A stretch of DNA of 64,000 nt from an uncultured Sphingomonadales bacterium (GTDB lineage Bacteria > Pseudomonadota > Alphaproteobacteria > Sphingomonadales > Sphingomonadaceae), in the NCBI GenBank assembly GCA_903832325.1, contig CAILBC010000012.1, positions 148,379-212,378 of the forward strand, given 5' to 3'. Every line of letters starts with the position of its first letter. Position 1 is the stretch's first letter. Both the position numbers and the translations under genes were made by a program. The notes beneath the pieces are model-generated. The model saw only the letters and a list, made by a program, of their open reading frames with translations. It searched no databases and had not been told where the DNA came from. Of the stretch, positions 6,581 to 19,684 are shown piece after piece.

Positions 6581-6657
6581 ACGTGACGCGCAATCGCCGC
6601 GCGGGCTGATACCAACGCGCAGTGAGTCAAGCGCACTGCGCGTTGGTATCAGTGGCG
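6581..6657. repeat. Dispersed hairpin repeat, copy 1 (REP-like)
   Basis: The core is a perfect inverted repeat: TGATACCAACGCGCAGTG (6607-6624), a 9-nt loop, and CACTGCGCGTTGGTATCA (6634-6651). It is preceded by CGCCGCGCGGGC. A related, more degenerate copy lies at about 42651-42728 in the same orientation, sharing the loop AGTCAAGC and the left flank. The right arm contains the purH stop codon. There is no T run, so it is not a canonical terminator. Confidence 0.8.
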
Positions 6658-8244
6658 GAAATGGCGCATGCCGGTGAAGACCATGGCCAGCCCGGCTTCA
6701 TCGGCGGCGCGGATCACGTCTTCATCGCGGATCGATCCGCCCGGCTGGATCACGCAAGTCGCGCCGGCCTCGACCGCGGCAAGCAGGCCATCGGCAAAAG
6801 GAAAGAACGCGTCAGAGGCAACCGCCGATCCGATCGTGCGCGGGCCATCCCAGCCGTGCGTTTCAGCCGCCTCACGCGCTTTGGCCGCGGCGATGCGCGA
6901 TGAATCGCGGCGGTTCATCTGGCCGGCGCCGATCCCGGCGGTGACGCCATCGCGCGCATAAACGATTGCGTTCGATTTCACATGCTTGGCCACAGTCCAG
7001 GCAAACAGGGCGTCGGCCAGTTCCTGCGGGGTGGGGGCGCGGCGGGTCACGACTTTCAGTTCGGCGGGATCGATCCGGCCATTGTCGCGATCCTGTACCA
7101 GCAGGCCGCCGGCAATCGGCACGGTGATCAGCGCGTCACGCGCCGCATCGGGCAGTGCGGGCAAAATCAGCAGGCGCAGGTTCTTTTTGTGCGCAAACAC
7201 CGCGCGCGCGGCTTCGTCTGCGCCCGGCGCCACCACCACTTCGGTAAAGATCGCGGTGATCGCCTCGGCCGTCGGGCCATCGAGCGGCACGTTGGTGGCC
7301 ACGATGCCGCCAAATGCGGATACCGAATCGCAGGCCAGCGCGGCCTGCCACGCTTCAACCAGCGTGGCCGCGGTGGCCACGCCGCAAGGGTTCGCGTGCT
7401 TTACGATCACCACGGTCGGCCCGGCCTCGCGGAATTCGGCAATCAGTTCGATCGCCGCATTGGCGTCGTTGTAATTGTTGTACGACAGCTCCTTGCCCTG
7501 CACCTGCTCGGCCTGGGGCAGGCCCGATCCGGAGCCGCCGCGCGGCACATAAAGCGCCGCCGCCTGGTGCGGATTTTCGCCATAGCGCAGCGTGCTCACC
7601 AGCGTGTGCGCCTGCGTCAGCGTTTCGGGAAAATGCTGGCCCTGATCGACCCGTGCGAACCATGCCGCAATCGCCGAGTCATAGGCCGCGGTGGCCGCAT
7701 AGGCCTTTGCCGCAAGGCGCCGGCGGAACGCGAGCGAGGTGGCGCCGCCGCTGGCGGTCAGTTCATCGATAAGCGCGCCATAATCGGCCGGATCGGTCAC
7801 GATCGCGACGAAATCATGGTTCTTGGCAGCGGAACGGACCATCGCCGGGCCGCCGATATCGATGTTTTCGATGGTTTCATCGCGATCCGCGCCGCGCGCC
7901 ACGGTGGCCTCGAACGGATAGAGATTGACCACCACCAGATCGATCGCACCGATGGCATGTGTGGCCATGGCCGCGGCATGGTCGGGATTGTCACGCACCG
8001 CGAGCAGGCCGCCGTGGACCATCGGGTGCAGCGTCTTGACCCGGCCGTCCATCATTTCGGGAAACCCGGTGAGGTCGGAAATGTCGCGCACCGCCAGCCC
8101 CGCCTCACGCAGGGCCTTTGCCGTGCCGCCTGTCGAAACCAGCTCAACCCCATGCGCCACCAGCGCCTGGCCCAGTTCGACCAGGCCGGCCTTGTCGGAC
8201 ACGGAAAGCAATGCCCTCGCGATTTTCACTGTACCCAATGCCAT
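6649..8244 (-). CDS. purH: Bifunctional AICAR transformylase / IMP cyclohydrolase
   Basis: A 531-residue enzyme catalysing the last two steps of de novo IMP synthesis. The N-terminal cyclohydrolase (about 1-200) begins with [10 protein letters not shown] and has STGGTAKAL and the [12 protein letters not shown] signature. The C-terminal formyltransferase (about 205-531) has the catalytic KHANPCGVA motif and ends with the conserved [10 protein letters not shown]. Length matches the family. The stop codon sits inside the copy-1 hairpin repeat. The 5' side is preceded by hairpin array A (8283-8447), which ends 38 nt before the start codon. Confidence 0.97.
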
Positions 8245-8282
8245 TGTCCCGAATTGCAGCTGACTATGGGGTGTGCCTTAGA

Positions 8283-8447
8283 GCGCCGCGCAAAAAAGTG
8301 GGAACCGGTTTTTTGCGAAAAGCGGCGCGACCACCAAAAAACATGCGCCGCGCAAAAAAGCATGCCCTGAGCGAAGTCGAAGGGTGGGAACCGGTTTTTT
8401 GCGAAAAGCGGCGCGACCATCAAAAAACATGCGCCGCGCAAAAAAAC
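8283..8447 (-). repeat. Hairpin repeat array A, between the heparinase-like gene and purH
   Basis: The array has a short unit (8283-8328), a long unit (8345-8414) and a third partial left arm (8431-8447). Each complete unit is an inverted repeat with outer arms GCGCCGC/GCGGCGC and inner arms GCAAAAAA/TTTTTTGC around GTGGGAACCGG. The long unit contains an extra 24 bp (CATGCCCTGAGC...GAAGGG). Units are separated by 16-nt spacers GACCAYCAAAAAACAT. The family recurs as array B at 18782-18990 in the opposite strand orientation. Relative to the downstream gene, the short unit is again the proximal one. Confidence 0.92.
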
Positions 8448-8453
8448 GGGGGC

Positions 8454-10421
8454 TCAGCGCATCTTCTTCAGCAGCCAGGAAAAGCTTTCGCCACTACGCG
8501 GCACTTTGGCGCTGATCACCAGCTGGCGCGTGGCGACCGGGCGGCCCTGCGCATCGGCCCACAGGCTTTCCTCGATGGTCACCGCGTCGCGGCCCGAACG
8601 GAATTGCCACAGGCTGCCATCGGGCAGCGCCAGCGTGACGCCCAACCCGTCGCGGCCCTGCGCCAGTTCGATGTGCGGGCCCAGGTGAAAGCGCAAGTTG
8701 ACCGCGATCGTGCCGCGTTTGCCCTTGCGCCCGGTCGGCACCAGGCAATCTTCGCCGCGCAGTTCGCTGCCATCATCGCGCAGGATCATTATGCGGCGAT
8801 GGGTCAGTCCATAGCGCGAGGCATAGCCGTTGTGGCTCGCCTCCAGCCGGGTTGCGCCGGCGCCAGGGCCTTCGCCATTGAGCGTGCGGCGGTCAATATC
8901 CACTTCCGACACGCCGGTGCCGAGCTTGCCGTTGATCAGCACCGCGGTCGAATTGAAATCATCGATGGTCAGCGTGGAATGCGCCGCGGTCGCGCGCAGG
9001 CCCTGCGCCAGGCGCACCGGGATCAGCCCGCCGGCGCAGGCACCGCCACCGCAATTGACAATGATCCGTTCGCCGCCGTGGCTGAATTCAAACGCCAGCG
9101 TAGAGGCGCAGCCATCGCGCGCATGGCGCGAAACCGGCGGCGGCGCGGCATCGAACATCAGGATCGAACGCTGCGCGGCCACGCGTTGATAGCCCCATTG
9201 CCGTGCATCGCGCAGCGGCCGGGTGCGTACGCCCGTCGCGCGGATCAGCGCGGCGATGCGCGTGGCCGACATCGCATGCGCGCCCTGCCATCCGGCCAGC
9301 GCGCCATCCCCATGCAGCACCGCCAGCAGCGGCGGCACGAGCAAGGTCATGATCGTTTCGATCTGCACCGGCGGCTCGGCACGCACCGCCCCATAACAGG
9401 CGTGCAGCCGCACCAGCAGCTCGATCGCTTCGATCTGGCACAGCGGGCTGCGCGACAGCACGCCGCCATCATCGCCCACCAGATCGCCCAGCGCACGCAC
9501 CAGGCCCGCTTCGCCATACAGGCGCCGCGCGCGACCATCGGCCAGCAGCAGGCCGGCGGCGGTGATCGCGGTCCACCCGGCCACTTCGGCCAGCTTGTCT
9601 TCGGCGCGGCCGACATTGCGGTCCAGCCAGCTGCACGTCGTTTCCAGCGCGTGGAGCGCGCGGCTGCGAAATTTGCGATCCTGGCCTGACAGAATCAGCG
9701 GCGCATGGATCAGCCAGCCCAGCACACGATGTGCGACATTGCCAACATCCCACGCCGGGGTGGCATCGGGGCGCGGATTGGCGGTGAGCCAGCGCCCCAG
9801 GATGCGTTCTGCCACGGCGGTGCATTGCGGCCGTGCCGCGCATGATTCCAGATCACCCAGCCAGCCGAACCCGTGGACCAGCCGTTCCAGTGGCGGCGCC
9901 AGCCGGGGGCCGGAAAATTCGATATCGGCAATCGGCGCCTTCAGCCCGTGCAGCAGGAAATGCCCGGCGCGCAGCGCGGTTCCGGCAGATGCATCGCCTG
10001 GCAGCGGATTGGCCACGGTGGCGGTGAGCCGCGGCGGGGTGCGCTTGGACAGCGGATTGAGCGACCGCGATCCGAACCCCAGGCGATAGGCCAGCCGGAT
10101 CAGCCGTTCGCCGGTGTTCACTTGCGGCGGCGAAAAATCTGCCAGCGCGAGGGCCCTGCCCGGTTCTATCATGCCCGGTTCTATCAAATCGCGATCGATC
10201 AAATCGCGTTCAGGCTCATCAGGCCCGGCGGAATGCATCCCAGGCAGACCTGGTGGCGTCAGCCCCGCCGCTTCGCCGGCGAAGGCGGGCGCCGCCAGCT
10301 CGACATGGTGATCGCGCCCCGGGCCCAGCGGGATGGCCATGGCCGGCAAATCGTCGGCATCATTCCGGCCGGCCACGCCGCGCGCCAGTGTGAGGTCGGT
10401 AAACGTGCCGCGACGGGCCAT
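8454..10421 (-). CDS. Heparinase II/III-like family protein
   Basis: A 655-residue protein with an N-terminal alpha/alpha toroid (about 90-400: WLGDLESCA, WDVGNVAHRVLGWL, WLDRNVGRAEDKLAEVAGWT) and a C-terminal beta-sandwich domain. The family contains polysaccharide lyases, but this version sits between rpe and purH in sphingomonads and its substrate is unknown. I saw no signal peptide. The first ~90 residues are variable, with near-duplicate segments (DLIDRDLIEPGMIEPG) from short DNA repeats at about 10150-10210. ATG 10421 follows the rpe stop by 5 nt; the TTG at 10430 in the track would overlap rpe. It is probably co-transcribed with rpe. Confidence 0.85.
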   Translation of the reverse strand: MARRGTFTDLTLARGVAGRNDADDLPAMAIPLGPGRDHHVELAAPAFAGEAAGLTPPGLPGMHSAGPDEPERDLIDRDLIEPGMIEPGRALALADFSPPQVNTGERLIRLAYRLGFGSRSLNPLSKRTPPRLTATVANPLPGDASAGTALRAGHFLLHGLKAPIADIEFSGPRLAPPLERLVHGFGWLGDLESCAARPQCTAVAERILGRWLTANPRPDATPAWDVGNVAHRVLGWLIHAPLILSGQDRKFRSRALHALETTCSWLDRNVGRAEDKLAEVAGWTAITAAGLLLADGRARRLYGEAGLVRALGDLVGDDGGVLSRSPLCQIEAIELLVRLHACYGAVRAEPPVQIETIMTLLVPPLLAVLHGDGALAGWQGAHAMSATRIAALIRATGVRTRPLRDARQWGYQRVAAQRSILMFDAAPPPVSRHARDGCASTLAFEFSHGGERIIVNCGGGACAGGLIPVRLAQGLRATAAHSTLTIDDFNSTAVLINGKLGTGVSEVDIDRRTLNGEGPGAGATRLEASHNGYASRYGLTHRRIMILRDDGSELRGEDCLVPTGRKGKRGTIAVNLRFHLGPHIELAQGRDGLGVTLALPDGSLWQFRSGRDAVTIEESLWADAQGRPVATRQLVISAKVPRSGESFSWLLKKMR

Positions 10422-10426
10422 AGGCT

Positions 10427-11089
10427 TCAAACGGCCCCCTTCAGCGCGGCGATGTTGGCGGCATAGTGATCGGGCCCGCCGCGGAATGTGGCCGTGCCCG
10501 CCACCAGCACATCGGCGCCGGCAGATATGCAGGATGCGGCAGTGGTGCGGTCTACCCCGCCATCGACTTCCAGATGGATTTGCCGCCCGGTCTTGTCGAT
10601 CATCCGCCGGATCGCTTCGATCTTGCGCAATTGGCTGGTGATGAAGCTTTGCCCGCCAAATCCGGGGTTCACGCTCATCACCAGCACCAGGTCGATATCG
10701 TCGATCAGATAATCGAGCATCTTGGCCGGGGTTGCGGGATTGAGCGAAATGCCGGCTTTCTTGCCCAGCGCCTTGATCGCCTGGATCGTGCGGTGGGTGT
10801 GGGGCCCGGCTTCGGGGTGAACGGTGATGATGTCGGCGCCGGCGGCGGCAAACGCTTCAAGGAACCCGTCGACCGGCGAAATCATCAGGTGCACGTCAAA
10901 CGGCTTGGCCGTGTGCGGGCGCAGCGCCTTGACCACGCCGGGCCCGATGGTCAGGTTCGGCACAAAATGGCCGTCCATCACGTCGACATGAATCCAGTCG
11001 GCGCCCGCCGCGTCGATGGCGCGAACCTCTTCACCCAGCCGGGCAAAATCGGCGGACAGGATCGACGGGGAAATCAGTGGCACGGTCAT
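10427..11089 (-). CDS. rpe: Ribulose-phosphate 3-epimerase
   Basis: A 220-residue TIM-barrel enzyme interconverting ribulose-5-P and xylulose-5-P in the pentose phosphate pathway. The start [13 protein letters not shown], metal-binding [12 protein letters not shown] (His34, Asp36), [10 protein letters not shown] and EVDGGV are diagnostic. The track ORF opens at 11614, but the extra residues are read through a repeat region, and ATG 11089 matches the family N terminus exactly. Three hairpin repeats lie directly upstream (11103-11183). Confidence 0.96.
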
Positions 11090-11478
11090 TGCGGCAACCC
11101 GGTCCATTCGTAGCGCCGCAGGGAGCGGCACCATTTGTAGCGCCGCAGAGCGCGGCATCATTTGTAGCGCCGCAGAGAGCGGCTTGGGGGCGGCCAATCG
11201 CGGCTGCGCATGCGGCGCAGGCCGGTCAGAACTGCCCGTGTTCAGGCGATACCCACGGGGGGATGGGGCCACAAGCGGTATTGCGCGCGTTTTCCACACG
11301 CTCTGTCGCGATTGACGCCATTTCCGACGGGTTTGGGCAGCAAAGGTTGCAGCGGACTGTGCCTGCACCGGTGCATCTGTCACTGCGGTGCGACACTTTC
11401 CCACTGCGGCGCGGTCTTGCGCAGGGCGTGCGTTTGGCGCAAGGCGCAATGATCGGAAGCTTTCGGGCGAAACCTTGC
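11090..11478. other. Divergent intergenic region between rpe and the DUF2141 gene
   Basis: This 389-nt stretch holds the three tandem hairpin repeats described separately (11103-11183). The remaining ~290 nt (11184-11478) show no conserved ORF, RNA gene or clear promoter. A weak alternative ATG for the DUF2141 gene lies at 11449, preceded by AAGG. Confidence 0.6.
11103..11183. repeat. Three tandem 27-bp hairpin repeats upstream of rpe
   Basis: Three near-identical units of about 27 bp share TGTAGCGCCGCAG...GCGGC (first unit CGTAG). Each contains a 5-bp stem GCCGC/GCGGC around a 5-nt loop (AGGGA, AGAGC, AGAGA). Loop bases vary while stem bases are kept. One plus-strand frame encodes repeating PFVAPQ-type peptides, which I regard as incidental. 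Confidence 0.75.
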
Positions 11479-12009
11479 ATGCGTTTGATCGACCGGTTCG
11501 TGATGCCCTGGCGCAGCGTTTGCGCCAATTCCATGCGCTCGCTGGCGGTTTTTGCCGCGCCTTTGCTGGTGTATGGCGCTTTGGCGTGCGGCACTCCGGC
11601 GCATGCCGCGCCACCCTGTCTGGGCCCGGCCAGCAGCACCTGGATCACGATTTCGGTCGATGGCGTGCGCAATGCCGAAGGGCAGATCGCGACCACGGTC
11701 TATGCCGATGCGCCGGAGCGGTTTCTGGTCAAGAACGGATCGCTCTATGTCGTGCGCACACCTGCGGTGGCGGGCGTGACGAAATACTGCGTATTCGTGC
11801 CGCAAGTCGGCGTCTACGCCATCGCGATCTATCATGATGAGGACAATTCGGGCACGATCAACCGATCGGGTGTGCTGGGCATTCCCACCGAAGGCTTCGG
11901 GTTTTCCAACAATCCGCCCACGCTGGCCAGCCTGCCCACGTTCCGTTCGGTGCGGCTGAACATTCCGCGCACCAATCTGGCCACGACCATCCATCTGAAA
12001 TATCCCTGA
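11479..12009 (+). CDS. Exported DUF2141 family protein
   Basis: The mature part (about 110-140 residues) matches DUF2141, a family of small secreted beta-rich proteins of unknown role. Visible hallmarks are [10 protein letters not shown], the [16 protein letters not shown] block with its acidic turn, and [12 protein letters not shown] signal peptide lies in [26 protein letters not shown], so ATG 11533 (158 aa) is also plausible. ATG 11479 gives 176 aa with a longer basic N-region. The 2-hydroxyacid dehydrogenase starts 15 nt downstream. Confidence 0.8.
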
Positions 12010-12024
12010 CCGGGCGGTTGCGGC

Positions 12025-12996
12025 ATGACCGATCGCGAACGCTCGGCGCCTTTGGCACCGGTTCTCGTCGCCGCGCCGTTGCCGGCGGTGACCATGGCCG
12101 CGCTGGAACGCGCCTTTACGGTCCATTGCCTGTGGCAGGGCGTGGCCGATGCCGATCTGGCCACAGTGCGCGGCATTGCGGCCAGCACTCTGGCGCAAGG
12201 CATCGGCGAAGATCTGTTTGCCCGTTGCCCGGCACTGGAACTGATCGCCAATTTCGGCGTCGGCTATGACAATATCGATATTGCCGCGGCCGTGCGGCGC
12301 GGCCTGGTGGTCACCAACACGGCGGGCGTGCTGGATGAAGAAGTTGCCGATCTGACATTGGGCCTGGTGCTTGCCACGCTGCGGCGGTTGCCCGCGGCCG
12401 AACGGTTCCTGCGCGACGGGCATTGGCAACACGGCAGCTTTCCCCTGTCGCCATCGCTGCGCGGGCGCCGTGTCGGGATTGTCGGGCTGGGCGGCATCGG
12501 CAAGGCGGTGGCGCGCCGGCTGCATGGCTTTGCGGTCGATATTGCCTGGTATGGCCGCACGCTGCAGCCCGAAATCGGCTATCGCCGGGCGCCATCGCTG
12601 CTGGCGCTGGCGCAGGACAGCGATGTGCTGATCGTGATCGTGCCCGGCGGCCCTGCCACGCGGCACATGATCGATGCGCCGGTGCTTTCCGCGCTGGGGC
12701 CCGATGGCGTGTTGATAAATGTGTCACGCGGCAGCGTGGTGGACGAAGCAGCGCTGATCACCGCGCTGCAACAGCGCACGATCCTGGCCGCGGGGCTGGA
12801 TGTGTTCGAACGCGAACCGCATGTGCCTGCTGCGCTGATCGCCTGCGACAACGCGGTGTTGCTGCCGCATGTCGGTTCGGCATCGGAACTGACGCGCCAG
12901 GCCATGGGGCAGATGATGGTGGACAACCTGGCTTCGTGGTTTGCGGGGCGCGGCCCACTGACCCCGGTGCCCGAAACGCGGCACTTGCTCAGATAA
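12025..12996 (+). CDS. D-isomer-specific 2-hydroxyacid dehydrogenase
   Basis: A 323-residue NAD(P)-dependent dehydrogenase resembling glyoxylate/hydroxypyruvate reductases. NFGVGYDNID (77-86) lines the substrate site, GLGGIG (154-159) is the dinucleotide loop, and the catalytic triad is Arg235 (NVSRGSVVDE), Glu264 (FEREP) and His282 (LPHVGSAS). The substrate is not determinable, though glyoxylate or hydroxypyruvate is likely. Its 3' end overlaps the convergent nucleotidyltransferase gene by 8 bp. Confidence 0.9.
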   Translation: MTDRERSAPLAPVLVAAPLPAVTMAALERAFTVHCLWQGVADADLATVRGIAASTLAQGIGEDLFARCPALELIANFGVGYDNIDIAAAVRRGLVVTNTAGVLDEEVADLTLGLVLATLRRLPAAERFLRDGHWQHGSFPLSPSLRGRRVGIVGLGGIGKAVARRLHGFAVDIAWYGRTLQPEIGYRRAPSLLALAQDSDVLIVIVPGGPATRHMIDAPVLSALGPDGVLINVSRGSVVDEAALITALQQRTILAAGLDVFEREPHVPAALIACDNAVLLPHVGSASELTRQAMGQMMVDNLASWFAGRGPLTPVPETRHLLR

Positions 12997-13747
12997 CCGG
13001 GGGTTTTCCCACTTCGGCCAGTGCCTGGGCAAAATGCCAGAGCGCGGTTTCTTCGGCCAGCGCGTGATAATGCGGATCATCGATATCGATCCACCAGGCA
13101 TCCTCGATATCGAGCGTGGCGGCGCGATCATAGGCGGCCAGCGCCTGCACCCCTTCGGACAGCGAACCGGCTTTGCCGCTGGCGATGGCCGCGCGGATTG
13201 CCGGGGCCAGTTCGGGCGTGACCAGAAACGCGCCGCAATCGACAGCATCATACGTGCGGATGGTCTTGCCAATGGCGCGGATCATGCCGCGGTCATCGGT
13301 TTCCACCCAGGTCGCATCCTCCGGATCGATCAGCGGATTGTCCAGCCGGCGGTCGATCGCCAGCGTCAGCCCGCAATCGGGGCGCGATTCGGCCATCAGC
13401 CGCGCCAGGATTTCCACATCGAACAGATGGTCGGCCATCATCAGCAGGTAATTGCCATCGCAGCGGGTGGCGCCGGCAATCACCGAATGCCCGTTGGGTG
13501 TTGACCAGTCGGTCAGCCGCACCGGCACGATCGGGATGGCCAGCCGGAGCGACAACTCGGCCAGAAACCGTTCCAGCCGATCGGCCTCGTGCCCGGTCAC
13601 GACCACCACGCGGGTCACCCCGGCAAGCACGGCCTGGCGAATCGACAGCTCGATGATCGGAACGCCGCACACCGGCGTCAGCGGCTTTGACGGCGATAGC
13701 GCGGCCAGCCGGCTGCCATAGCCGGCGGCGATGATCAACGCATCCAT
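12989..13747 (-). CDS. NTP transferase, probable inositol-1-phosphate cytidylyltransferase-like
   Basis: A 252-residue nucleotidyltransferase. The NTP-binding loop is AAGYGSRLAALSPSKPL (7-23). MADHLFD supplies the expected metal-binding Asp, and the protein ends in WWIDIDDPHYHALAEE. The sequence resembles the cytidylyltransferase domain of IPCT/DIPPS enzymes, which make CDP-inositol. Context supports this: the next gene on the same strand is myo-inositol-1-phosphate synthase, and a CDP-alcohol phosphotransferase follows. Other sugar-1-phosphate substrates remain possible. The track start 13804 adds 19 unrelated residues; ATG 13747 (MDALIIAAGYG) is preferred. Confidence 0.8.
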   Translation of the reverse strand: MDALIIAAGYGSRLAALSPSKPLTPVCGVPIIELSIRQAVLAGVTRVVVVTGHEADRLERFLAELSLRLAIPIVPVRLTDWSTPNGHSVIAGATRCDGNYLLMMADHLFDVEILARLMAESRPDCGLTLAIDRRLDNPLIDPEDATWVETDDRGMIRAIGKTIRTYDAVDCGAFLVTPELAPAIRAAIASGKAGSLSEGVQALAAYDRAATLDIEDAWWIDIDDPHYHALAEETALWHFAQALAEVGKPPVI

Positions 13748-13820
13748 GCGTGTGCTTTCCCCAACACCATTCTGTCCTTGTCCGGCGGCACCATTTCTGT
13801 GCAAGCCGGCCCCCTCGGCG

Positions 13821-13856
13821 AAAAAGGGCGGCGCCAGCCAGATGCCAACGCCGCCC
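13821..13856 (-). terminator. Rho-independent terminator after the inositol phosphate synthase gene
   Basis: Read on the minus strand, an 8-bp perfect stem GGGCGGCG/CGCCGCCC with a 15-nt loop is followed directly by a TTTTT run. It lies between the synthase stop (13879) and the nucleotidyltransferase start (13747), so the two genes may be partly uncoupled. Confidence 0.6.
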
Positions 13857-13878
13857 GAAACGCCGAAAAGAAACCGGA

Positions 13879-14979
13879 TTATTCGGCCGCGAGGGCCGGT
13901 TCGGTAATATATTCTTCGACCAGCTGCGCGGCGACATCATCGCTGAACTGCTGTGGCGGATGCTTGCAGAAATAGGCCGACGGGCCGATCAGTGCCCCGC
14001 CTTCGCCGCGTTCCAGCGCAACCTTGCAGCAACGGATCGCATCCATCACGCAGGCCGCCGAATTCGGGCTGTCTTCGACCGACAGGCGCAGTTCCAGGTT
14101 CATCGGAACATTGCCCCACTGCGTGCCTTCCAGACGAAGGAAGCACAGCTTGTTGTCTTTTTGCCAGGGAACATAGTCCGACGGGCCGACATGGATGTTT
14201 TCATCCGCAAGACGCTGCGCGAGCATGGCCTGCACCGCCTCGGTCTTCGATTCCTTCTTGCTGCCCAGCCGCTGGCGGTCGAGCATGTTCATGAAATCGG
14301 TATTGCCGCCGGTGTTCAGCTGGTAGGTTTTTTCCACCGTTACGCCGCGCGCGCCAAACAGGCTGGACAGCACGCGATGGACGATGGTGGCGCCCACTTG
14401 CGCCTTGATGTCATCGCCCACGATCGGCAGCCGCTTGGCGCGGAACCGGGCTTCCCATTCCGGGGTGCTGGCGATGAACACGGGCATGCAGTTGACCACC
14501 GCAACGCCGGCTTCGAGCGCGCATTCCATGTAGAATTCGGTGGCGGTCTGCGATCCGACGGGCAGGAAGTTCAACAGCACCTCGGCGCCCGACGTCTTCA
14601 GCGCGGCAACCATGCTGTCGTGCGTCGCTTCAGGGGCATCGGCAACGATGAAGCCGCGATCGCCCATTCCGGTCATATGATCGGCCACCCCGTCAAGGAT
14701 GCAGCCCATGATCACCTTGTTGCCGGTCTGCGGCACGTCGGCATGGAACACGGCGGTGCAATTGGGGCCGGCGAAGATCGCCTCACCCAGATCCTTGCCC
14801 ACTTTGCGCGCATCGACATCAACGCCGAGCACGAATTCCACATCACCCGCGCCATAGCCACCGATCCGGTCATGGATCAGCCCACCGGCCGAATTGTTCT
14901 GACGGTAAAAGTACACTCCCTGGACAAGCGAGCTGGCGCAGTTGCCCACGCCGATCACCGCGACCTTGATTGGCTTCAT
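13879..14979 (-). CDS. L-myo-inositol-1-phosphate synthase
   Basis: A 366-residue protein of the bacterial/archaeal inositol-phosphate synthase family, which converts glucose-6-phosphate to inositol-1-phosphate using bound NAD. The Rossmann start VAVIGVGNCASSLVQG is characteristic. Further blocks are VLGVDVDARKVGKDL, NCMPVFIASTPEWEARF and DDIKAQVGATIVHRVL. GGNTDFMNM is a signature of the short family. ATG 14979 aligns with the family N terminus (the track adds 16 residues). It is divergent from the CDP-alcohol phosphotransferase across an intergenic region with an 18-bp palindrome. Confidence 0.92.
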   Translation of the reverse strand: MKPIKVAVIGVGNCASSLVQGVYFYRQNNSAGGLIHDRIGGYGAGDVEFVLGVDVDARKVGKDLGEAIFAGPNCTAVFHADVPQTGNKVIMGCILDGVADHMTGMGDRGFIVADAPEATHDSMVAALKTSGAEVLLNFLPVGSQTATEFYMECALEAGVAVVNCMPVFIASTPEWEARFRAKRLPIVGDDIKAQVGATIVHRVLSSLFGARGVTVEKTYQLNTGGNTDFMNMLDRQRLGSKKESKTEAVQAMLAQRLADENIHVGPSDYVPWQKDNKLCFLRLEGTQWGNVPMNLELRLSVEDSPNSAACVMDAIRCCKVALERGEGGALIGPSAYFCKHPPQQFSDDVAAQLVEEYITEPALAAE

Positions 14980-15290
14980 GTAAGCACGTCCTCTTCGACA
15001 GGCACCGGTACGGGGTGCTGTCATCAAAGTGCCTTAGTTTGCGAAATTGTGCCGGATTGCAAGCGGAATCCCCCGGCAGTCAAGCAAGCCCGGAAAACCG
15101 TGCCGTTTCGGGCCCGAAACGATGGCGCTGCGGCGCACAAATCTGGCACTTCGCCGCACGTGTCGGGCGGGTCACCCGCAAAGCGCGGTGGCGTGGTGGG
15201 CAAAGTCCGCCTATGCAGTGCGGCAGGTGCTTTTGCGCCGGCCCCCCCCTTTGGCCCAAACTCCTTTGAAAAGGCAAAGAGCACCACACC
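14980..15290. promoter_or_regulatory. Divergent promoter region with an 18-bp palindrome, candidate operator
   Basis: This 311-nt gap separates the divergent inositol-phosphate synthase and CDP-alcohol phosphotransferase genes. It contains a perfect palindrome CGTTTCGGGCCCGAAACG at 15104-15121. A symmetric site centred between divergent genes of one pathway is a plausible operator. No transcription factor is assigned, and I could not identify -35/-10 elements. Confidence 0.45.
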
Positions 15291-16220
15291 ATGGCGACAG
15301 CATCCCGCGAACGGCCGCGCCGCCCGCGCGAATTGCAGGATTCGCTCAATCACTATCTCTATCACCCGCTGGCCTGGCGGCTGGCGCGCGCGCTTGCGCC
15401 CACCCCTGTCACGCCCAACATGGTGTCGGTGGCCGGCGGGCTGTTCGTGGTGGCGGCGGGGCTGGTCTATTGGCAGGGGTCGGCCTGGGGGCTGGTCTGG
15501 CCGTGGGGCGCGTTGCTGGGGCTGATGCTGCACATGACGTGGCACGTGGTCGATGGCGCCGATGGCGATCTGGCGCGGCTGACCGGGCGCAGCAGCCCGA
15601 TGGGCGAACTGGTTGACGGCATTTGCGATTATGCCAGCCATATCGTGCTCTATGTGCTGCTGGTGCTGGTGCTGGCGCCATCGATCGGCTGGTTCTGGGC
15701 GTGGTTCTGGGCGCTGTTTGCCGGGGCGAGCCACATTGCACAGGCCAATTTCGTGGAAGTGCAGCGCCGGTTCTATCAATATTGGACATATGGCGTGCCC
15801 TGGCTGAACAATGCCACGCAGAACGATGCCGCGCTGTTCAAGGACAAGCGCGGCGTATCATGGATTCTGCGCGGGTTCGTGCTGGGCTATCTGCGGCTGG
15901 CTTCGGGGATGAGCCCGCACGCGATGACCATCGATGCCGCGGTAACCCGCGCGATTGCCGCCGACCGCGCCGGCGATGGCACTGCGCTCGCGCAGATCCG
16001 CGCCGAAGTACAGCGCGAACAACGCCCCTTGCTGGTGATGCTGAAGGCGCTTGGCCCCAATCCGCGCGCGATCATCCTGGGCGCGGCGATGCTGGCGGGC
16101 AGCCCCTTGTGGTATTTCGTCTATCAGTCGCTGGCGCTCAACGCGCTGCTGGTCTTTGCCGTGCGCCGCGAAGATGCCGCGGCGCTGCGGGTGGTGGAAA
16201 GGCTGGCGCTCAGGACCTGA
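15291..16220 (+). CDS. CDP-alcohol phosphotransferase (polytopic membrane enzyme)
   Basis: A 309-residue integral membrane protein with a perfect family signature DGADGDLARLTGRSSPMGELVDGICD. This fits D-x2-DG-x2-AR-x8-G-x3-D-x3-D, with Asp88, Asp91, Asp109 and Asp113 as metal/catalytic residues. Several hydrophobic helices are visible (about 45-62, 67-86, 115-145 and the C terminus). The family transfers a phospho-alcohol from a CDP-linked donor. With the neighbouring synthase and cytidylyltransferase, CDP-inositol is the likeliest donor. The acceptor is unknown. The 3' end overlaps the convergent MFS gene by 11 bp. Confidence 0.88.
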   Translation: MATASRERPRRPRELQDSLNHYLYHPLAWRLARALAPTPVTPNMVSVAGGLFVVAAGLVYWQGSAWGLVWPWGALLGLMLHMTWHVVDGADGDLARLTGRSSPMGELVDGICDYASHIVLYVLLVLVLAPSIGWFWAWFWALFAGASHIAQANFVEVQRRFYQYWTYGVPWLNNATQNDAALFKDKRGVSWILRGFVLGYLRLASGMSPHAMTIDAAVTRAIAADRAGDGTALAQIRAEVQREQRPLLVMLKALGPNPRAIILGAAMLAGSPLWYFVYQSLALNALLVFAVRREDAAALRVVERLALRT

Positions 16221-17688
16221 CGGCCTGATCCCGATCACGCAGGAACAGCGCCAGCACCACGATCACCAGCGCCTCGATCACGGCCCAGACCATCCAGTGC
16301 GAATGGTTGTAGAGAAAAACGCCGATGGCCGGGGACACGATATAGGCCGAACCGTTCACCGCCGCGACAATGCCGGCCGCCTGGCCCTGTTCGCGCAAGC
16401 TGACCGCCAGGCTGGCCCCGGCGGTGAAGCCGGGCCGAAACAGGCCGAATCCCACTGAACAGATGGCAAAACCGGTGGCGATGGCATGCAGGTCCTGCCC
16501 CAGCGCCACAGGCAGGGTGCCCACCGCGACCAGCGCCATGCCGATCATCGTCGACAGCCGCGGCCCCAGCCCCAGCATCGGAATCAGCCCCCATTGCGCC
16601 AGCAGCATCGCGATCGCGCCGACCATCAGCACCAGGCCGATCGGCCCGGCGGCGGCATCGGGCTGGTGGCGCAGGCCCAGCCGGTCAAGCAGCAGGAACC
16701 CGATCACCCCCAGCATGATCGATTGCGCCTGCCCGCCCAGCGTGCCGGCAATCAGCCAGCGCCGGATGCGCGGATCGGCCCAGCGCAGCCGGCCATCGCC
16801 CGCATCCGCGTCCCCGGCATTGTCCTGTTCAATATTGTCCGCTTCATCATCGCCAACCGCATTGCCGTTGCCCAGCCAGCCATCGGCATGTTCGCCAAAG
16901 GCCTGCGCACGGCCGGTGCGGCCGCGGGCGGCACCTGCGCCGGTCAGGTGTGCCGGGGCCTGTTCGTCGCCCATGTCGCCGTCCTGCGGCGAATCATCGG
17001 GCAGCCCCACGCGCAGCATCGCCAGCACCACCAGCGCGCCCAGCGTAAACCCGGCGAAGGGCCCGATCAGGCCGATGCCGGGCAAAATCAGCAAGGGCGC
17101 GAGCGCCGGGCCGAGCGCGGTGCCCAGGCCAAAGCTGCTGGCGACCATCGACAGCGCCTTGGTACGTTCGGCGCGGCTGGTGCGGCTGGCCACATAGGCC
17201 TGCACTGCGGGCGGCGCGGCCGATCCGAACGTGCCATAAAGCGACCGGGCGACTGCAAACAGCACGATCGCGGTCATCCCGCTGACCAGACCCTTCAATC
17301 CCGCCAGCAGCGCCGCGCCGCACAGCGCGAACGACAGCGCAAAGGCCGCCAGGCCCAGCGCCATCATCGCCTTGCGCCCGCGCTGGTCCGACCGGCGCGC
17401 CCAGAACGGGGCCAGCAACATCCACAACAGCGCCGACCACGAATAGGCCAGGCTGACCCACACATCGGCAATGCCCAGGTGCGTGCCGATCGACGGCATG
17501 ACCGATTGCATCGCGGTGTTGCCCGCGGCGATGATCAGCATGACCGCAAACAGCAGTGCCATCCGCGCCGGGGGCAGGCTCTGCGGCGAAGTTGGCACCT
17601 GGCCCGCCGGTTCGTCGTGCACGGCGGCATGGGCCGCCGGCTCTCGCAAAGGCGTTCGCAAAGGCTGGGGCAAAGACTGGTCGGTCAT
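16210..17688 (-). CDS. MFS transporter with an acidic cytoplasmic insert
   Basis: A 492-residue major facilitator resembling TetA-like drug/H+ antiporters. APFWARRSDQRGRKAMM is the loop 2-3 motif, and twelve hydrophobic segments are recognisable. The central loop between the halves is long and strongly acidic (DDSPQDGDMGDEQ, then DDEADNIEQDNAGDADAGDG). The N-terminal ~40 residues are polar. ATG 17688 (MTDQSLPQP) was chosen over the track start 17760. The transported substrate cannot be predicted. Confidence 0.85.
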   Translation of the reverse strand: MTDQSLPQPLRTPLREPAAHAAVHDEPAGQVPTSPQSLPPARMALLFAVMLIIAAGNTAMQSVMPSIGTHLGIADVWVSLAYSWSALLWMLLAPFWARRSDQRGRKAMMALGLAAFALSFALCGAALLAGLKGLVSGMTAIVLFAVARSLYGTFGSAAPPAVQAYVASRTSRAERTKALSMVASSFGLGTALGPALAPLLILPGIGLIGPFAGFTLGALVVLAMLRVGLPDDSPQDGDMGDEQAPAHLTGAGAARGRTGRAQAFGEHADGWLGNGNAVGDDEADNIEQDNAGDADAGDGRLRWADPRIRRWLIAGTLGGQAQSIMLGVIGFLLLDRLGLRHQPDAAAGPIGLVLMVGAIAMLLAQWGLIPMLGLGPRLSTMIGMALVAVGTLPVALGQDLHAIATGFAICSVGFGLFRPGFTAGASLAVSLREQGQAAGIVAAVNGSAYIVSPAIGVFLYNHSHWMVWAVIEALVIVVLALFLRDRDQAVRS

Positions 17689-17800
17689 GCGCTGGCAGGC
17701 TCCCCTCACCCGGAAAACCGGATTCTCGCGCCCGGTAAGCGGCTTGGCCGGTACTGGCAATGGGGCATTGTCGAAATGGGGCGGCGAACCGGCGCGCCCT

Positions 17801-18619
17801 TCAGGCCGGGGTGGAGGGGCTGATTGTCGTGCCGTTTCCGTTGATCGGGCCGAACTGCTGATACGTCGACGCGATCATCGCGGTGAAATAAACATAGCCC
17901 ACTGAAAGCAGCAGCGCCCCCACCGCTTCGCTGGCCAGCCGTTGCACTTCGGGCTGGGCAAAGCCGGCCAGGATCACTGCCACCACGATTGCGGCCAGCG
18001 CATAGACCACCAGAAACAGCGTCAGCGCGGGGCCGAAAAACAGCGCCAGCGCGCCAAACCGGCCGCGCGTGCGCATCAGCCCGGCGCCGATCGCGCGAAA
18101 CGGATTTTGCAGCCGCTGCGCGACCATTTCCGGGCCGATCAGCATGGTTCGCGTGATCGGGTAGATCATGATCACCAGCGCCAGCAGCGTGGCCACGCCC
18201 TGCGGCAGCACCATGGCCAGCACGGCAAGCGCGACAACCGCCACCACCGACAGCATCAGCGCCACCAGCACCTGCACCACCAGATAACTGGGCAACAGCC
18301 GCAGGGCCCGCCCGATCGCCTCTCGCACGGTGGGCCGGTCGCGATCGAGCAGCATGGCCAGCAGCGTCAGATACCCCGCCAGCATCGGCAACGACAATGC
18401 GATCAGCAGCGGCCCGGCGGTGACATAGAATTGCGAAACCGCCTCAACCATCTGGTCCTGGTTCATGCCATTGGTCAATTGCGGGGTGGGCAGCACCACC
18501 GCGGCGATCAGGCCGGGCATCAGAAAGAACACCCCGGCAATCGCGGCCAGCATGTCGCGATTGGTCGAAACCATGCGCCGGGCGGCCTGCCATGCGGTGC
18601 TGCTGTCGAGCGTTGCCAC
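17801..18619 (-). CDS. Polytopic membrane protein of unknown function
   Basis: A 272-residue hydrophobic protein with about six transmembrane segments. The first follows [18 protein letters not shown] and the last precedes [14 protein letters not shown]. It resembles sphingomonad hypothetical membrane proteins without an assigned role. The track ORF begins at 18949, but that extension (peptides like RAKKHALS...EGWEPVF) is hairpin-repeat readthrough plus a 3x15-bp repeat. A GTG at 18619, preceded by GGATGA, starts just before the conserved DSSTAW region and is my choice. Confidence 0.75.
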
Positions 18620-18644
18620 GTCTTCATCCCATATTGCGGCAGTG

Positions 18645-18689
18645 TTGCCGGAAACGATGTTGCCGGAAACGATGTCACCGGAAACGATG
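18645..18689. repeat. Three tandem 15-bp repeats
   Basis: TTGCCGGAAACGATG is repeated twice exactly, followed by a third copy beginning TCACC. It lies just upstream of the proposed GTG start of the membrane protein and produces the repeating IVSGN peptides in the over-extended track ORF. Confidence 0.85.
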
Positions 18690-18781
18690 CGCCGCCCAGA
18701 TACCGGGATATTGCAGATCCCGGCAAGACCAGCCTTGTAGAGTATCGGATGGACCAAGGGGAAACGGTTTTCGATTGCGGC

Positions 18782-18990
18782 GCATCGCTTCTGCAAAAAA
18801 CCGGTTCCCACCCTTCCGCCGTGCTCAGGGCGTGCTTTTTTGCGCGATGCGTTGCAGGAGGTCGCATCGCTTATGCAAAAAACCGGTTCCCACCCTTCGG
18901 CCATGCTCAGGGCATGCTTTTTTGCGCGATGCGTTTCAGGAGGTCGCATCGCCTATGCAAAAAACCGGTTCCCACTTTTTTGCGCGATGC
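18782..18990 (+). repeat. Hairpin repeat array B, directly upstream of lipB
   Basis: There are three units: two long (18782-18850, 18864-18932) and one short (18946-18990), separated by 13-nt spacers GTTKCAGGAGGTC. Outer arms are GCATCGC/GCGATGC and inner arms GCAAAAAA/TTTTTTGC around CCGGTTCCCAC. Compared with array A, the outer stems differ at two positions in each arm, and the changes are complementary. The short unit ends 16 nt before the lipB ATG. Each spacer carries AGGAGG 11 nt before an ATG in the next unit. Confidence 0.92.
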
Positions 18991-19006
18991 TTTAGGGGGC
19001 ATTGGC

Positions 19007-19684
19007 ATGACCATGGCCCCGTCGATCCGCGATATCGCCATTCAGGCCGAAACCGCCGCAGTGCCCTATCGCGCCGCGCTTGACGCGATGACGGCGCGCA
19101 ACGCGGCGATTGCCGATGGCACGCAGGGTGAACTGGTCTGGCTGCTAGAACACCCGCCGGTCTATACCGCCGGCACCAGCGCGGTGGACGAAGACTTGAT
19201 CGATGCGCGGTTTGATGTGGTCAATGCGGGGCGCGGCGGGCGCCACACCTATCATGGTCCGGGCCAGCGCATCGGCTATCTGATGCTCGATCTGCGCCGC
19301 CGCAATCGCGATGCGCGCGGGCCAGATGTGCGCCGGTTCGTCCACGCGGTGGAAGGCTGGGTTATCGACACGCTGGGCGATTTCGGAGTGGAGGCATGGC
19401 GCGCGCCGGGCCGCATCGGCATCTGGACCCGTGGCCGCGATGGTGCCGAGGCGAAAATCGGCGCGATCGGCATCCGCATCCGCCGCTGGGTGACGATGCA
19501 CGGTTTTTCGGTCAACTTGTCGCCCGATCTGTCGCATTTTGCCGGAATCGTGCCCTGCGGCATTGCCGATCATGGCGTTACCAGCCTGGCCGATCTGGGG
19601 CTGGAGGTTGCGCCCGCGGCATGGGATAAGGCACTGCTGGCGCGGATGGATGCGTTTCTGGATGCGATCGACGCGCCGGCCTGA
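19007..19684 (+). CDS. lipB: Octanoyl-[acyl carrier protein]:protein N-octanoyltransferase
   Basis: A 225-residue LipB that transfers octanoate from ACP to lipoyl domains. Signatures are [28 protein letters not shown], the catalytic Lys150 ([10 protein letters not shown]) and the acyl-accepting Cys184 in IVPCGI. The track fuses it to a long upstream frame. ATG 19007 (or 19013) matches the family N terminus, with AGGGGG upstream. It directly follows hairpin array B. lipA is not in the window. Confidence 0.94.

Follow-up and report, generated by a model that had tools for sequence, protein, structure and literature searches.

Two hairpin arrays in a sphingomonad genome as local tandem copies of a small alphaproteobacterial hairpin repeat

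The window analysed here, a 64,000-nt stretch of contig CAILBC010000012.1 from an uncultured Sphingomonadales bacterium (assembly GCA_903832325.1), contains two short arrays of hairpin units, A and B, whose outer arms differ at positions that remain paired. Does this difference mean that the hairpin itself is conserved, as a sequence-only reading of the window had suggested, and what kind of element would the hairpin then represent? Both arrays consist of local tandem copies of a small hairpin repeat that is dispersed in Novosphingobium and many other Alphaproteobacteria. The explanation favoured here, with a probability of roughly 0.55, is that they are tandem copies of the first hairpin of a non-autonomous dispersed palindromic repeat, of the type of the CcrM-associated intergenic repeats (CIR) and RIME elements, which must fold to be copied.

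Structure of arrays A and B

Direct reading of the sequence places complete units of array A at 8283-8328 and 8345-8414 on the + strand, with a 5'-half unit at 8431-8445, and complete units of array B at 18990-18946, 18932-18864 and 18850-18782 on the − strand. Including the short termini of the first units, the features are as follows:

8279..8328, +: array A unit 1 (A1), plain, 15/15 pairs
8279-8282, 8283-8289 and 8290-8297, +: TAGA terminus, outer arm and inner arm GCAAAAAA of A1
8298-8308, 8309-8316, 8317-8321 and 8322-8328, +: loop GTGGGAACCGG, inner arm, 3' bulge GAAAA and outer arm of A1
8329..8344, +: array A spacer GACCACCAAAAAACAT, which recurs with one change at 8415-8430
8345..8414, +: array A unit 2 (A2), with the 24-nt loop insert GCATGCCCTGAGCGAAGTCGAAGG at 8360-8383
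8431..8445, +: truncated third unit of array A, reduced to its 5' outer and inner arms
18946..18994, −: array B unit 1, plain, read from 18994, with a TAAA terminus and the 3' bulge ATAG
18864..18932, −: array B unit 2 (B2), with the 24-nt loop insert at 18917-18894
18782..18850, −: array B unit 3 (B3), with a variant 24-nt loop insert at 18835-18812

The outer arms given in the sequence-only reading, GCGCCGC/GCGGCGC for array A and GCATCGC/GCGATGC for array B, are correct base for base. In each arm the two differing bases lie side by side (GC to AT) with Watson-Crick pairing kept at both positions, the A6/T6 arms and the box AACCGGTT are identical in both arrays, and every complete unit carries the arm version of its array. 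The core GTGGGAACCGGTTTTTTGC occurs five times in the window versus none expected from shuffles, even at three mismatches, and 21 times in the genome at up to two mismatches versus none for the reversed control.

The earlier reading missed a 24-nt insert, located inside the loop between the A6 arm and GTGGGAACCGG in three of the five complete units (A2, B2 and B3). The insert core CCCTGAGC...CGAAGGG is found at four places in the genome, each within such a hairpin loop, the fourth being in an array on contig C26; the idea of an independent dispersed repeat of this genome was rejected, hairpin loops being its only location. In the B versions of the insert, the differences fall at corresponding positions of the internal direct repeat GCATG/GCACG.

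Among tandem neighbours, five of six pairs carry the same arms, versus 20% of random same-genome pairs, and the shared arms include versions that the rest of the sample lacks (L099, L103); the repeat thus grows in tandem as whole units. Since tandem neighbours in other genomes also share their arms, the uniform arms within A and within B reflect, first of all, tandem duplication. The order of a plain unit followed by insert-bearing units is common to A, B and the C26 array, yet the arms of A differ from those of B and C26, and each array has its own spacer. If this order was inherited, it is likely that the arms of array A were homogenised within the array, because A and B share it while differing in arms and spacers. 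The array-wide copying proposed earlier is therefore likely for array A, whereas most of the arm sharing can be put down to tandem copying. Because units within an array are tandem copies, the comparison of A with B is weak by itself and compensatory changes at the level of arrays prove little; the evidence must come from dispersed copies.

Dispersed copies and covariation of the stem

The family-wide unit is a bulged 15-bp hairpin of about 50 nt: 7 outer and 8 inner pairs are closed by a near-invariant 11-nt loop, GTGGGNRCCGG, and 4-5 unpaired nt separate the two stem segments on the 3' side. Of 126 copies, 115 have this bulge on the 3' side and 111 keep it at 4-5 nt, although its sequence is free; random positions form 6.8 pairs on average and never reach 13. 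TAGAGC and TAAAGC starts predominate, so that the 5' foot is TAGA or TAAA and the conserved block is the loop. Full copies continue through a linker (about GACAACAAAGACTC) into a second hairpin and often end with GCTCTA; the second hairpin was detected in 23 of 124 copies versus 3 of 489 control windows, and GANTC in the 30-nt linker in 23 of 125 versus 13 of 617 controls. Neither the second hairpin nor GANTC is present in array A or B, and the best name for these arrays is a CIR/RIME-like repeat variant made of tandem first hairpins only. In one copy (L017 / L042), the inner stem and loop are partially duplicated in nested form.

A covariance-model search revealed at least 34 matches in the window's own genome. 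Within the genus the distribution is patchy, with 0 to 91 scored copies per genome, identical copies in one genome (G010) and many close relatives without any. All matching genomes listed for the class and phylum samples belong to the Alphaproteobacteria, and the same plan of loop and bulge is shared by other families of this class. The two-hairpin element was also found on plasmids of Sphingobium, Allorhizobium and Paracoccus, and a single hairpin with this loop is common in plasmid records of Rhizobium, Sinorhizobium and Bradyrhizobium.

Covariation was assessed in 122 distinct copies from the window's genome and its relatives, collected by the loop anchor and aligned with MAFFT without structure; 1,770 column pairs were scored with an average-product-corrected (APC) G-test against tree-based nulls. 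The seven top-scoring column pairs (14-36, 10-45, 11-44, 15-35, 13-37, 9-46 and 7-48) are all stem pairs. Watson-Crick pairs make up 92% of stem cells versus 27-38% when the partners are slid, and double changes on single branches number 39 versus 8.9 expected; they include flips from G-C to C-G, which cannot be reached through G-U. As a check on the way the copies were collected, an arm-blind set was gathered from the window's own genome by the loop pattern alone: 15 of its 21 copies, with several arm versions, form at least 12 of the 15 pairs. The conservation of the hairpin, claimed originally from the two arrays, is thus supported by the 122-copy alignment and not by A and B alone.

The same data dispose of most of the case for the arrays as an isolated event, a double substitution homogenised within one array under no wider constraint. 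Tandem units do share arms far above random pairs, and the A/B difference could be a single event, but the 122 copies contain 25 distinct 5' outer-arm sequences, 50 of the copies are fully paired, and the covariation is family-wide; this explanation is hardly credible.

Covariation by itself does not prove selection on folding, because template switching can yield it too: this process has been shown to be a route to compensatory changes (PMC8794818). During replication, one arm of a near-palindrome would be copied onto the other, so that the hairpin maintains itself by mutation and no function of the fold is under selection. This is the main rival explanation of the covariation. The abundance of single-branch double changes, the flips that cannot pass through G-U and the adjacency of the two pairs that differ between A and B all agree with it. 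At the same time, it predicts neither a near-invariant loop of fixed orientation nor a 3' bulge of fixed length, 4-5 nt, and free sequence, and on 24 of the 28 branches where pairs were compensated only one pair is involved, whereas the mechanism would be expected to give multi-pair tracts. On balance, template switching as the full explanation appears unlikely, though it deserves more weight than any other alternative considered here.

Position relative to genes

The two arrays lie in different gene contexts, and array B adjoins a further hairpin-like motif:

6649..8244, −: purH-like gene (AICARFT/IMPCHase), downstream of array A
8454..10430, −: heparinase II/III-like gene, upstream of array A, on the same strand as purH; the start is a longest-ORF call
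17801..18628, −: predicted gene with no Pfam match, oriented away from array B; start codon chosen by eye
18738..18775, +: older related motif TAGAG..GACC..GGGAAACGGTTTTCG (also written ..GGGAACCGGTTTTCG), hairpin-like, upstream of lipB
19007..19684, +: lipB-like gene (lipoyl ligase A/B catalytic domain), downstream of array B; start codon chosen by eye

Array A is antisense within the co-directional heparinase-like/purH pair, and array B lies between divergent genes. The gap between the heparinase-like gene and purH is about 25-40 nt in 12 Novosphingobium relatives versus about 237 nt in the window, and array B is likewise missing from related Novosphingobium. A copy-free orthologous site was observed at mutL, where a hairpin copy (HP1) in a genome assigned to N. 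rosa is situated between convergent genes whose orthologous stop codons are 4 nt apart in G024. The empty-site alignment for the single L189 copy gave no clean junction. The motif at 18738-18775, which array B adjoins in the opposite orientation, is common to the orthologous spot in three related species (L164, L166, L167) and may be a decayed old copy of the repeat or a regulatory site of lipB.

According to simple codon-model gene calls, 39 copies are antisense to both neighbours, 36 of the 102 classified copies are convergent, 19 are sense and 8 divergent, and 4 of the 110 examined copies are inside a predicted gene. The repeat is frequently placed directly after stop codons: in five relatives, genes reading towards the 5' end of the hairpin stop 0-2 nt from the stem in 30 of 50 cases, using TAG, TAA or TGA. 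In the same relatives, genes starting at the hairpin do so 9-18 nt away in 16 of 29 cases.

Such a position could suggest that the hairpin acts in mRNA at gene 3' ends, in transcript stability, termination or the slowing of the last ribosomes, and is selected as RNA. The stop-codon distances and the convergent copies are consistent with this, as are the overall excess of G-T over A-C mismatches (34 to 17) and the transcription of some related repeats of S. meliloti (PMC2873474). However, the G-T excess, on small numbers, is found in antisense copies (14 to 1), where the mRNA would carry A-C instead, and is absent from sense-left copies (8 to 7); as a discriminator between RNA and DNA the asymmetry was therefore set aside, and it lends the mRNA role no support. 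The large class of copies antisense to both neighbours, the antisense placement of array A inside its gene pair and the many close relatives without copies also count against selection as RNA. The T tract is inside the stem, and the search for intrinsic terminators gave none over array A and two weak sites over array B that use the insert. A role in mRNA is possible where copies are sense, and lacks support for antisense copies and array A; as a general account it is rather improbable. Rfam models at the gathering score gave no match in the window or over the hairpins in 20 loci. The single Rfam hit, the suhB/mmgR small RNA (RF00519), is at positions 1716-1790 of locus L025 in the window's genome, about 160 nt beyond a full two-hairpin copy.

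Known repeats and the search for a mobilising enzyme

CIR elements were reportedly described by Chen and Shapiro in 2003, and RIME1 and RIME2 of rhizobia, said to have a two-palindrome architecture, by Osteras in 1995. To our knowledge, such alphaproteobacterial repeats have been on record for decades with no mover or function assigned to them. A review (PMC2229807) describes CIR of Caulobacter, Brucella and their relatives as intergenic elements of about 110 bp with two long inverted repeats and a linker, TA termini and GANTC enriched in the linker or the second hairpin. Compared by description only, and not with the CIR1-4 sequences, the present repeat resembles them in the two-hairpin architecture of a subset of copies, TA ends, intergenic position and GANTC enrichment; the arrays in the window differ as tandem first hairpins with a loop insert and without the second hairpin or GANTC. 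RIME1/RIME2 and the AB and C palindromes of rhizobia, mentioned in PMC2573895, are similar in having two palindromes, an intergenic position and a high copy number, again by description and not by published RIME sequence, but the repeat of the window has other arms and another host.

Repetitive extragenic palindromic (REP) elements and BIMEs, associated with RAYT in enterobacteria and Pseudomonas, likewise are short extragenic hairpins near gene ends, with tandem clusters and a conserved recognition element. The sequence-only reading had suggested such a RAYT/TnpA-like partner, and the window's genome does contain one RAYT-like gene and a second fragment (L022, L023). The hairpin shape, extragenic position and conserved element fit REP elements moved by a RAYT/TnpA_REP (Y1) transposase, but no hairpin copies were found on the contigs of the RAYT-like gene and the fragment. 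Searches for Y1/RAYT gave no matches in the genomes G012 (61 copies), G016 (32) and G030 (56), all at least 98% complete, and G019, G021, G025 and G029 have strong full-length Y1 matches and no copies. The presence of the repeat does not track Y1, the hairpin foot has no GTAG-type tetranucleotide, and the conserved element is the loop; these results argue against the obvious mover, and mobilisation by RAYT is very unlikely.

The repeat ends TAGAGC...GCTCTA resemble the short TA-initial terminal inverted repeats of miniature inverted-repeat transposable elements (MITEs) of TA-targeting insertion sequences (IS) of the IS630/Tc1-mariner type. No DDE_3 match was obtained in the copy-rich G030 (56 copies); an IS630-type DDE_3 transposase was rejected as a requirement, its presence not tracking copy number.

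The mechanism proposed for the favoured palindromic repeat would involve a trans-acting enzyme that recognises the folded strand, probably by loop plus bulge, and produces new copies; the arms would be free to vary only in matched pairs. The surviving copies would be those at the ends of genes, the TAG terminus being able to act as a stop codon there, and arrays A and B would then have grown by tandem duplication with some homogenisation between units. Several points weigh against this explanation. Over all pairs, 14-36 alone beats the tree null, and the next six have E = 0.17-7.7; the null is broad, and for most stem pairs significance holds only for the group or within the 15 proposed pairs, where, in the manner of a two-set R-scape test and by scaling the E values, five more fall below about 0.05. 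The covariation expected in a larger alignment was recovered in the identity of the seven leading pairs, and individually in one of them. Most copies in the covariation set come from loci retrieved by a structure-aware model, and such a model is biased towards paired arms. The searches gave no mobilising enzyme, neither RAYT/Y1 nor DDE_3 tracking copy number, and no target-site duplication was demonstrated, the orthologous array-free sites being too diverged for exact junctions. The compared genomes are separate species, and their 'empty' sites show absence, not a dated insertion.

The results supply a testable description of the repeat: a covarying stem, a fixed 3' bulge, a fixed loop and a stop-codon position. 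Perhaps, as a tentative and rather doubtful extension, it is a class-wide mobile hairpin of Alphaproteobacteria, read by the loop GTGGGNRCCGG and the fixed 3' bulge. An undescribed enzyme, distinct from both RAYT and the IS630 type, would insert it with a preference for stop codons; if this were true, the repeats would define a new single-strand mobilisation system.

Another candidate in the window was rejected as a dispersed REP, since it occurs nowhere else in the genome: it is a local triplet of 27-nt tandem repeats GTAGCGCCGCAGxGxGCGGC at 11110-11190 (+), each of which forms a small hairpin after GTAG.

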